5,053 nucleotides of DNA, taken from positions 1 to 5,053 of the forward strand of contig JAISAX010000515.1 in the NCBI GenBank assembly GCA_031266495.1, read 5' to 3'. Both the position numbers and the translations under genes were made by a program. The notes beneath the pieces are model-generated. The model was not told the DNA's origin. It saw nothing but the letters and a program-made list of their open reading frames with translations, and searched no databases. The stretch comes from Opitutaceae bacterium (GTDB taxonomy: Bacteria > Verrucomicrobiota > Verrucomicrobiae > Opitutales > Opitutaceae). Numbering within the stretch: the first letter of the stretch is position 1; each line of letters opens with the position of its first letter. Of this stretch, positions 2,999 to 4,693 are shown piece by piece.

Positions 2999-3009
2999 GG
3001 GGGGGGGGG
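2999..3009. repeat. G11 homopolymer tract after the helicase gene
   Basis: Eleven consecutive G begin 22 bases after the stop codon, preceded by GGGA. A short GC hairpin (GCCGG 2981-2985 with CCGGC 2990-2994) lies between the stop and the tract. Without a T-run this is not a convincing intrinsic terminator. Tract length may vary between cells or be misread by sequencing. Confidence 0.7.
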
Positions 3010-3034
3010 AAACTCCGAAGCACCGAGGGAATGG

Positions 3035-3054
3035 AACCGCTAAATGGCGCTAAG
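3035..3054. repeat. CGCTAAA decamer repeats, left cluster
   Basis: Two 10-bp units, AACCGCTAAA and TGGCGCTAAG, run in tandem. They face the three inverted copies at 3431-3460 and so bracket the mobile-element region between the convergent genes. GGAACCG also occurs twice at 21-bp spacing (3033-3039 and 3054-3060), the second copy being the tip of the outer element's terminal repeat. Confidence 0.6.
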
Positions 3055-3199
3055 GAACCGTAATGAAATAAACAGAGCAAATCTGCCTGGTCTTGAAGAG
3101 GGAGCCAGCGTCGCTGACCCGGTCATTTATTCCCAATCCGGTAAACTCCCTCGTCAGCTCCTTGGCCCGCTCTTCAATCCCGGCGCATCTTTGCTCTGT
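3050..3199 (-). other. Start-less coding-like fragment inside the outer element
   Basis: On the minus strand an open stretch of 49 codons runs from after a TAA at 3200-3202 to a TAG at 3050-3052. The middle part reads as a plausible charged helix (IEERAKELTREFTGLG), with mostly G or C in third positions over its first 30 or so codons. There is no ATG in frame and no ribosome binding site. The last residues (SVYFITVP) come from the terminal inverted repeat. It may be a leftover of a gene captured by the element, or chance in GC-rich DNA. I do not recognise a family with confidence. Confidence 0.2.
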
Positions 3200-3207
3200 T
3201 TATTTCA
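3200..3207. repeat. Target-site duplication TTATTTCA, left copy
   Basis: This octamer directly abuts the left end of the inner element and is identical to 3346-3353 at its right end. The flanking bases differ (T then C here; G then T on the right), so the duplication is exactly 8 bp. Confidence 0.7.
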
Positions 3208-3227
3208 CTGACGTTACGCGGGCGAAG

Positions 3228-3251
3228 GTAGGGGCTTCGCTTGCGAAGCCC
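3228..3251 (+). repeat. REP-like hairpin with GTAG head, forward copy
   Basis: GTAG (3228-3231) is followed by the arms GGGCTTCGC (3232-3240) and GCGAAGCCC (3243-3251) around two bases. A GTAG or GGAG tetranucleotide 5' of an imperfect or perfect hairpin is the known signature of REP sequences processed by REP-associated tyrosine transposases (RAYT/TnpA-REP). No such transposase is in the window. Confidence 0.65.
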
Positions 3252-3300
3252 GCGAGGACCTGTCGCAACGGGAGATACGCCAATTTTCTCCGCCTGGCGC

Positions 3301-3324
3301 GGGCGTCGCAAGCGACGCCCCTAC
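3301..3324 (-). repeat. REP-like hairpin with GTAG head, inverted copy
   Basis: Read on the minus strand this is GTAG (3324-3321), then GGGCGTCGC and GCGACGCCC around two bases. It opposes the copy at 3228-3251 across a 49-bp spacer, giving a REPIN/BIME-like pair. Arm sequences differ from the forward copy by one base per arm, and each copy remains perfectly self-complementary, which is a compensatory pattern. Confidence 0.65.
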
Positions 3325-3345
3325 CTTCGATCCGCGTAACATCAG

Positions 3346-3353
3346 TTATTTCA
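3346..3353. repeat. Target-site duplication TTATTTCA, right copy
   Basis: Identical to 3200-3207 and directly adjoining the right end of the inner element. The bases after it (TTACGGTTCCT) complete the right arm of the outer element. Confidence 0.7.
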
Positions 3354-3370
3354 TTACGGTTCCTGACAGA

Positions 3371-3437
3371 CGCTAAAACCAAACCCCTGCCATGCAGGGA
3401 TGAAGGTGTTCCGTCCGCGCCTGGTTCGGATTTAGCG
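3371..3437. repeat. Further inverted repeat beside the thioesterase end
   Basis: CGCTAAAACCAAACC (3371-3385) and GGTTCGGATTTAGCG (3423-3437) are reverse complements at 13 of 15 positions. The loop contains the smaller CCCTGC/GCAGGG hairpin. Its right arm runs into the CGCTAAA decamers. It may be a third short palindromic element or part of the thioesterase transcript's 3' structure. Confidence 0.5.
3385..3399 (-). terminator. Possible intrinsic terminator of the thioesterase gene
   Basis: On the minus strand CCCTGC and GCAGGG form a 6-bp stem with a three-base loop, followed by GTTTGGTTTTAG, a T-rich but interrupted tail. It lies about 43 bp past the thioesterase stop. The broken T-run keeps this moderate. 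Confidence 0.4.
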
Positions 3438-3460
3438 TTTTTTAGCGTCCTTTAGCGGTT
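3431..3460. repeat. CGCTAAA decamer repeats, right cluster, overlapping the thioesterase 3' end
   Basis: TTTAGCG starts at 3431, 3441 and 3451, an exact 10-bp period. On the minus strand this is three tandem units of the form NNNCGCTAAA. The last codons and the stop of the thioesterase lie within it. The left cluster at 3035-3054 is in the opposite orientation. Confidence 0.7.
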
Positions 3461-3903
3461 AACAACGGATTGGTTGTCAGGCCGGCGAACAGTTCGTTCA
3501 TGCGCGCGACGAAACGCGCGGGCGGGCGCACGGGTTTGCCGGAGCGGTCGATGAAGGCGTGGGTTGTCCAGCCGGTGGCGAGCCGTTCGCCGTCGGTGCC
3601 GCTGGTGCCGTCGGCGCGGCGCACCTCGTAAGCGAGGCGCATCCGTAGGGACGGTTTTTCCGCAAGCGTGGCGACGATGGCGAGCGTGTCGTCATAGCGC
3701 GCCGGTTTCAGGTAACGGACGTTGGCTTCCAGCACGGGCAGCAAAAACCCTTCCGCCTCCAGATCGCGGTAGGGCAGACCGTGGCGCCGGAACAGATCGG
3801 TGCGGGCGATTTCGAACCAGGGCAGATAATTGGCGTGGTAAACGATGCCCATCATGTCGGTTTCGGCGTAGCGGACCTGGACGGTGGAACGGTGCGTGAG
3901 CAT
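3442..3903 (-). CDS. Acyl-CoA thioesterase, YbgC/4HBT hotdog-fold family
   Basis: A 153-aa protein expected to be a cytoplasmic homo-oligomeric thioesterase hydrolysing acyl-CoA esters. The family signature is clear: VRYAETDMMGIVYHANYLPW (residues 10-29), with the expected catalytic Asp16, then Gly19, His23 and Tyr26, followed by the hotdog helix and strands (NVRYLKPARYDDTLAIVA, about residues 82-99). Length is slightly above the usual 130-150 aa. I chose the ATG at 3903 because the conserved fold begins a few residues later. A start at 3969 would add 22 Arg/Pro-rich residues that look untranslated. AGGA lies 14 bases before the chosen start, a poor Shine-Dalgarno spacing. The C-terminal LTAKGR and the TAA stop are encoded by CGCTAAA repeat DNA, so the original tail may have been replaced. 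Its substrate is unknown. E. coli YbgC works beside the Tol-Pal genes, but no tol gene is visible here. Confidence 0.93.
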   Translation of the reverse strand: MLTHRSTVQVRYAETDMMGIVYHANYLPWFEIARTDLFRRHGLPYRDLEAEGFLLPVLEANVRYLKPARYDDTLAIVATLAEKPSLRMRLAYEVRRADGTSGTDGERLATGWTTHAFIDRSGKPVRPPARFVARMNELFAGLTTNPLLTAKGR

Positions 3904-4105: not shown

Positions 4106-4228
4106 ATGACGACCCGCCGCCGCACCCATTCCGCTCTCCGTAATGCGGCGGAACCGTGCGCGAAAAAAGTTGCGCACGTGCCTAAAAAATCGTTATTTAC
4201 CCCCCCCCCCCCCCCCCCCCCGCATTAG
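4106..4228 (+). CDS. Weak small ORF ending in the poly-C tract, possible contingency reading frame
   Basis: An ATG at 4106 opens 40 codons (starting MTTRRRTHSALRNAAEPCAK) that run through the C22 tract as polyproline and stop at TAG 4226-4228. If the tract had 23 or 20 C, the frame would join one that is open without a stop to 4699-4701, passing through the 21-bp array as MDARTPG/MDARTFR repeats, for about 198 aa. That is the layout of a phase-variable gene. Against it: the downstream sequence is Arg-rich without a recognisable domain, there is no clear ribosome binding site, and GC-rich repeats stay open by chance. I lean towards non-coding. Confidence 0.2.
   Translation: MTTRRRTHSALRNAAEPCAKKVAHVPKKSLFTPPPPPPPH
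4200..4221. repeat. Poly-C tract, 22 consecutive C
   Basis: This mononucleotide run is far longer than chance allows. Runs of this length are highly prone to slipped-strand mispairing, the basis of phase variation by poly-G/poly-C tracts in other bacteria. It lies 473 bp upstream of the exported-protein start. The exact count in this assembly may be unreliable, since long homopolymers are poorly read. Confidence 0.85.
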
Positions 4229-4389: not shown

Positions 4390-4604
4390 GTCCACGCCAG
4401 GAGTTTCCGGATGGACGCCAGAACTCCTGGCATGGACGCCAGAACCTTCCGGATGGACGCCAGGACTCCTGGCGTGGACGCCAGAACCTTCCGGATGGAC
4501 GCCAGAACTCCTGGCGTGGACGCCAGGACCTTCCGGATGGACGCCAGGACTCCTGGCATGGACGCCAGAACCTTCCGGATGGACGCCAGAACTCCTGGCG
4601 TCCA
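4390..4604. repeat. 21-bp-period tandem array of alternating palindromic units
   Basis: Ten contiguous 21-bp units run from 4390 to 4599. They alternate between type B (ending CCTTCCGG; the first copy at 4390-4410 is diverged) and type A (ending ACTCCTGGC), i.e. five 42-bp dimers. All units except the first share TGGACGCCAG. Type A units contain the palindrome CGCCAG-N5-CTGGCG or GCCAGGACTCCTGGC. Some A/B junctions form CTGGCG-TGGA-CGCCAG, so each arm can pair left or right. The final unit and its flank make a 10-bp perfect hairpin (TGGACGCCAG 4580-4589 with CTGGCGTCCA 4595-4604). GTCCACGCCA occurs at both edges (4390 and 4600). Variation between copies is limited to a few A/G or G/A changes, which suggests recent expansion. 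There are no unique spacers, so it is not a CRISPR array. Confidence 0.9.
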
Positions 4605-4693
4605 CGCCAACCGCGACCCGGGATACCGGGAAACAGACCCCGAAGCCCGCTTTATTTTTGTCTGCTACCTGCTAACCAACAAAAAAATACACA

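Follow-up and report, generated by a model that had tools for sequence, protein, structure and literature searches.

A probable nest of three small palindromic elements, inserted in turn, in an intergenic region of an Opitutaceae bacterium

In an Opitutaceae bacterium, the intergenic region that separates the gene of a SNF2-type helicase from a convergent gene of a thioesterase very probably holds several small, nested, non-autonomous mobile elements, which were inserted in turn: a CGCTAAA-type palindrome, a 164-bp hairpin element and a 138-bp element. The nest was found in a stretch of 5,053 nucleotides (contig JAISAX010000515.1 of assembly GCA_031266495.1), the whole of which was analysed and is called the window here. 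Since the symmetry of the next layer returns with each deletion, the order of the insertions and their boundaries can be read; each of the families has an independent existence. The locus is a readable stratigraphy, in which the insertion order, the boundaries and the target duplications of three palindromic layers come from a single sequence, and a close relative that lacks all three layers provides a comparison for it.

Restored symmetry and the order of insertion

The layers and their parts are listed here by position in the window, with the strand where one applies.

3035 to 3053: first piece of the left arm of the outermost layer, a CGCTAAA-type palindrome (AACCGCTAAATGGCGCTAA); it joins 3367-3385 on removal of 313 bp
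3051 to 3053: left copy (TAA) of the putative 3-bp target duplication of the outer element, judged from the 313-bp deletion and the flanks of the family
3053 to 3081: left 29-bp arm of the outer element, in the boundaries of the sequence-only reading
3054 to 3363, minus strand: outer element of a hairpin family, 310 bp as found and 164 bp without the insert; matched by covariance model R1, with the more stable fold on the minus strand
3190 to 3199: right arm of the outer element, inner portion; the arm resumes at 3346-3364
3200 to 3207: left copy of the 8-bp target duplication of the inner element (TTATTTCA)
3208 to 3345: inner element, 138 bp, with two 14-bp terminal inverted repeats
3208 to 3221, plus strand: left terminal inverted repeat of the pair (CTGACGTTACGCGG)
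3228 to 3254, plus strand: first hairpin of an inverted doublet of GTAG-type REPs (GTAGGGGCTTCGCTTGCGAAGCCCGCG); its core recurs in G111 and TAV5
3298 to 3324, minus strand: second hairpin of the doublet; its core recurs in G111 and TAV5
3332 to 3345, minus strand: right terminal inverted repeat of the pair (CTGATGTTACGCGG)
3346 to 3353: right copy of the 8-bp target duplication of the inner element (TTATTTCA)
3346 to 3364: right arm of the outer element, outer portion, separated from the rest by the insertion
3364 to 3366: right copy (TGA, one mismatch) of the putative 3-bp target duplication of the outer element, judged from the 313-bp deletion and the flanks of the family
3367 to 3385: second piece of the outermost left arm (CAGACGCTAAAACCAAACC), displaced by the outer element
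3423 to 3460: outermost right arm (reverse complement AACCGCTAAAGGACGCTAAAAAACGCTAAATCCGAACC), multicopy at 3431-3460, with a 32/38 match

A reading of the sequence alone had held that deletion of 3200-3345 regenerates a perfect 29-bp inverted repeat, and that a 138-bp module with an 8-bp target duplication had been inserted into the arm of an older outer element. Removal of these 146 bp (or of 3208-3353) indeed leaves a perfect inverted repeat of 29/29, and when deletions of 138 to 154 bp are scanned with varied starts and ends, only a length of 146 bp exceeds 24/29. TTATTTCA stands without any difference at both 3200-3207 and 3346-3353, and the 14-bp ends of the inner element (CTGAYGTTACGCGG) are complementary in the window at 13 of their 14 positions. 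Both the restored symmetry and the occurrence of each part alone bear out this insertion.

In the predicted fold of the 312-bp segment of the sequence-only reading (3053-3364), both hairpins rise from one basal stem and form the three-way junction which that reading had described; the prediction is the same for either strand (-179.0 and -191.4 kcal/mol for the two strands). Such good folding of the whole segment, together with the resemblance of the outer family to a structured RNA on the minus strand, would suit a single branched RNA or DNA element that evolved as a unit, the symmetry being a by-product of its three-way junction. We regard this origin as improbable in the extreme, because outer relatives at 39 places match the model along its whole length without the inner part, and inner relatives occur elsewhere with a duplication of their own. 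As far as the relatives go, the single unit is refuted: both parts occur alone. The sequence-only reading had considered the nesting wrong if neither part were ever met alone, and had proposed to look for the outer element without the insertion and for the inner module at other sites; the former is found uninterrupted in other genomes, the latter with its own duplication.

Three features were absent from that account: a third palindrome that encloses the outer element, the doublet of REPs that the inner element contains, and a shift of both outer boundaries by one base. Of the two arms around the outer element, one comprises AACCGCTAAATGGCGCTAA and GACGCTAAAACC, and the other comprises TTTAGCGTTTTTTAGCGTCCTTTAGCGGTT. 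TTTAGCGTTTTTTAGCGTCCTTTAGCGGTT belongs to an Opitutaceae palindrome that exists in many copies (positions 3431-3460 of the window recur in multiple copies in TAV5 and other Opitutaceae), and the loci L091 and L128 hold relatives of the outermost right arm. Deletion of 313 bp restores the 38-nt arm of the CGCTAAA palindrome best, with 32/38 matches; all other deletion lengths between 292 and 340 reach at most 28/38, and 500 shuffles of the right flank at most 30. Several placements of the 313 bp tie at 32/38, and the length is therefore better fixed than the exact start. Because 313 bp and not 312 bp best restores the palindrome, we prefer to assign the outermost bases, A at 3053 and T at 3364, to a target duplication; as 313 bp corresponds to an outer element of 310 bp plus 3 bp, the duplication would be TAA/TGA and the boundaries would lie at 3054 and 3363. 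The nesting seen by the sequence-only reading stands, and its outer element of 166 bp (3053-3364) gives way to one of 164 bp.

The orthologous site in strain TAV5

The SNF2-type gene of the window (Pfam PF00176 and PF00271), which neighbours the gene of a 4HBT thioesterase, has its best counterpart among the matches listed from 252 family genomes in genome G112 (94% DNA identity), which we infer to be Opitutaceae strain TAV5. At the orthologous site of TAV5 the aligned flanks are 88-89% identical to the window, and the spacing between the aligned flank blocks is 219 bp, compared to 486 bp in the window. The TAV5 stretch possesses none of the three layers (0 of 8 short layer motifs are present) and is occupied instead by a cluster of GTGGC-type palindromes. 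With this different REP cluster in place, the absence of the layers is visible, the exact pre-insertion sequence is not. It follows that the nest dates from after the divergence of the two lineages, or that it has been replaced in TAV5 since then. The cluster in TAV5 (L382:3187-3405) is of the GTGGCACGGGC type, so the site seems to gather palindromic repeats repeatedly.

Other repetitive features of the window are a tandem array at 4394-4609 (42-bp unit, 5.1 copies, 91% matches, with alternating GGACGCCAG... motifs) and homopolymers of 22 C at 4200-4221 and 11 G at 2999-3009. Long G/C runs are also present in loci of genome G111.

The outer family and its possible RNA role

The outer element ends in GGAAC...GTTCC in the window, and ends of the GGGAC...GTCCC type are found in its family. 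Covariance model R1, built from ten aligned uninterrupted outer relatives (from G220, G216, G121 and G125), matches the window copy with 102.7 bits (E 2.5e-23) despite the insert. A survey of the 252 genomes with this model, under strict filters and with 11 candidates scored per genome, detects the family, uninterrupted, in at least 13 of them; with 150 candidates scored per genome, R1 has no match in any of five genomes that hold inner ends (TAV5, G111, G226, G227 and G228). Four of the five outer copies listed from G019 retain an unbroken arm motif, CCGTAACAAAATAA ... TTATTTCGTTACGG, the fifth reading TTATTTCGTGACGG; TTATTTCGTTACGG differs from the arm motif of the window, TTATTTCATTACGG, by one base.

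An exact 3-bp duplication flanks 8 of 37 outer copies (the 39 minus two at contig ends), compared to a mean of 3.0 and a maximum of 10 in permutations, and the statistical support for a 3-bp duplication in the outer family is modest. The clearest apparent case is a reverse nesting at L219 (G096), CTGATG-TTA-[GGACC...ATCCC]-TTA-CGCG, in which an outer-type element lies inside an inner-type end with TTA duplicated; the uninterrupted sequence of this end is known from hundreds of copies.

Alternatively, the outer element might be a structured RNA or a terminator hairpin that is copied or maintained in another way, and only the inner element would be truly mobile. We consider this unlikely, although the family does have traits of an RNA. 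Its arms differ between copies yet pair within each copy: they sum to 820 matched bases in 40 copies (the rejoined window copy included), whereas 10,000 permutations reach 713 at most. In 34 of the 40 copies the fold of the minus strand is the more stable one, and the consensus energy favours this strand among the ten copies (-75.7 vs -49.8 kcal/mol for the plus strand) as well as among 21 of 27 outer representatives (-24.5 vs -11.2 kcal/mol). The raw arms, read on the plus strand, contain 107 A.C and 40 G.T oppositions, equivalent to an apparent G.U bias of the minus strand. If each strand is given its own consensus, the minus strand has 79 G.U vs 27 A.C in the 21 representatives that were left after we had removed six divergent ones of the 27 beforehand. 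A column test on the plus-strand structure, on the other hand, reveals no strand bias (24 vs 18, p 0.44). A minus-strand bias in raw arms and energies that is absent from this column test makes an RNA role of the outer family possible, and leaves it unproven. Besides the column test, the copy that lies in an inner-type end between two TTA, the patchy distribution among the 252 genomes and the 313-bp restoration speak against an outer element that is not itself mobile. Mobility and an RNA nature are in any case compatible; a mobile element may also be transcribed.

At gathering scores, no Rfam family matches the window, and none matches within the outer copies of ten relatives up to E 0.5. Phage records queried with window 3000-3480 and plasmid records queried with 3053-3364 gave no result. 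Viral contigs contain the core motif of the outer element in 48 stretches, and the model matches none of them at E 0.01.

The inner family and its ends

The most unusual feature is that the inner-type family has only its ends in common. The exact 14-mer CTGAYGTTACGCGG is present in 7 of the 252 family genomes, with 192+189 copies in G228 (381), 140+128 in G096 (268), 28+25 in G227 (53), 5+16 in G111 (21), 7+7 in G112 (14) and 7+4 in G226 (11), plus one in G236; its reversed control pattern has 1-2 matches per genome in 15 genomes, none of which is one of the six rich ones. We compared 37 inner-type elements from loci L081-L278 (window excluded), with at most 2 mismatches in each end. They range in length from 70 to 459 bp, and their interiors fall into nine clusters without detectable similarity (single linkage, E 1e-4), the largest with 11 members. 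Their predicted folds pair 78% of the bases on average and 54% at minimum. An exact duplication of 7-8 bp accompanies 12 of the 37, the remaining 25 being without any exact duplication of 6 bp or more; the number of duplications of at least 6 bp expected by permutation has a mean of 0.66 and a maximum of 5 (2000 permutations).

The 138-bp element of the window has near full-length relatives in TAV5, with 77-80% identity. A lone inner element at L161:2337-2466 of that genome (77% identical) bears a perfect 8-bp TAAAATCA on both sides, a more partial copy at L130 has a 7-bp duplication (TGAAACA), and the third copy that was read closely, at L082, has none. In viral contigs, a search for paired inner ends 90-120 bases apart returned 0 matches.

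In a few loci inner-type elements adjoin each other. At L152:2694-2836 the same 7-bp spacer is found on both sides (CATCAG-TTATAAA-CTGATG), at L364:412-556 both spacers are TTATTGA, and at L146:2754-2907 they are similar (TTATGCA and TTATGAG). It looks as if one target sequence had been reused.

The interior of the window's inner element is an inverted pair of GTAG-led palindromes, whose dispersed core recurs at many sites in G111 and TAV5, there without the 14-bp ends. In both its GTAG-led inverted pairs and its dispersal, this core agrees with REPs and BIMEs.

Search for a transposase of the inner ends

Full-length IS copies sharing the inner ends, which the sequence-only reading had suggested to look for, were not found. 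The search covered the surroundings of a set of ends in TAV5 and G226, 54 loci (30 of the 33 PF01609 matches in G228, G096 and G227, plus 24 Y1 loci) and two end pairs of G228, and revealed no transposase gene convincingly flanked by inner ends. In 4 of the 54 loci, a minus end lies 500-3500 bp beyond a plus end, with up to 3 mismatches tolerated. As candidates for a full-length IS, L237, L239 and L250 were rejected because other ends lie in between, and are read as separate small elements; L238 (1906 bp) shows no duplication (1/7 bases equal). The longest plus-minus pairs among the first 100 of the 381 sites in G228, L356 and L357, enclose open reading frames that were judged ordinary by translation alone.

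Y1 transposase genes occur in all four genomes tested, with 42 matches in G096. Taken together with the GTAG-type REP doublet in the core of the inner element, this could mean that a RAYT (Y1/HUH) transposase moves the inner element as a REP or BIME, and that its 14-bp ends are incidental. We find this explanation highly unlikely: none of the 24 Y1 loci, six of the 42 from G096 among them, lies between paired 14-bp ends, and a few have a single end nearby. Moreover, the same ends enclose unrelated interiors, and GTAGGG is present in only 16 of the 37 inner-type elements. Y1 transposition is, finally, not expected to produce duplications of 7-8 bp.

The six-base motif GTAGGG is scattered near some of the 24 Y1 loci. 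In G096, a genome of 3.9 Mb that also contains the 268 14-bp ends, 25 of the 42 Y1 matches lie in open frames of 340-380 aa; the one that was read (L260) has a RAYT-like look.

Proposed insertion history and its significance

The nest of mobile elements was very probably built in three steps. A CGCTAAA-type palindrome occupied the site at first. The 164-bp hairpin element (GGAAC...GTTCC) then entered the left arm of this palindrome, with a putative duplication of 3 bp (TAA/TGA). Finally the 138-bp element, with its 14-bp ends and its inverted doublet of GTAG-type REP hairpins, entered the hairpin in its right arm, where it gave rise to the 8-bp duplication (TTATTTCA). Inner and outer elements are presumably moved by transposases that act in trans and recognise the terminal repeats, with a probable stagger of the cut of 8 bp for the inner element (7-8 bp in its family) and of 3 bp for the outer one. 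At its termini the 310-bp composite retains 18 intact inverted bases; in principle, then, it might be mobile as a whole.

A more far-reaching possibility, which we put forward tentatively and rather doubt, is a cassette-like system. A transposase acting in trans would move almost any short palindrome between two 14-bp ends of the CTGATGTTACGCGG family. It would thereby pick up and disseminate REPs and further palindromes whose origins are unrelated, in some cases placing them next to each other by using one 7-bp target again. To this system the outer family would add a mobile, transcribed, covarying hairpin RNA, and the two families would insert into each other.

For the inner family, our data raise the question of how, at hundreds of sites, a 14-bp end could set in motion interiors that are mostly palindromic and unrelated to each other, and whether REPs can spread as passengers of an element with such ends. 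As for the outer family, it may represent a mobile element in which selection acts on the fold of the RNA.

Comparison with known systems

MITEs are short, non-autonomous elements with terminal inverted repeats and target duplications, and the members of a MITE family normally have their interior in common. The outer element agrees with them in its terminal inverted repeats, its multicopy occurrence and the absence of a transposase gene. The inner element has terminal inverted repeats and a target site duplication and differs in its interior: its family comprises nine dissimilar interior clusters, with only the 14-bp ends in common. In general, the likeness to prokaryotic MITEs consists in short size, terminal inverted repeats, duplications and non-autonomy; these elements are the subject of a review (PMC10969869).

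GTAG-led palindromes in an inverted pair are the form of RAYT-associated REPs, and Opitutus terrae is highly enriched in GTAG repeats, according to the accessible part of PMC3733652. The core of the inner element contains the same inverted doublet. It differs from GTAG REPs and BIMEs in that the doublet is flanked by 14-bp ends and an 8-bp duplication, of which the accessible part of that source holds no description for REPs. Likewise, the literature searched, as far as its texts were accessible, contains no description of an inner family with only its ends in common or of a mobile, RNA-like outer family, and nothing on nested elements in Opitutaceae.

Nesting of bacterial repeats has a known precedent in other bacteria (PMC3049150, accessible part). 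As described there, the pneumococcal BOX and RUP are small repeats with terminal inverted repeats that cause target duplications, and BOX, RUP and SPRITE are likewise small repeats to which the elements of our window are comparable. They differ in belonging to another phylum and in having other sequences, whereas the Opitutaceae locus combines three layers, two symmetry-restoring deletions and an inner family that shares its ends only. It is in this inner family, and in an outer family that is apparently both mobile and RNA-like, that the nest departs from the usual picture.
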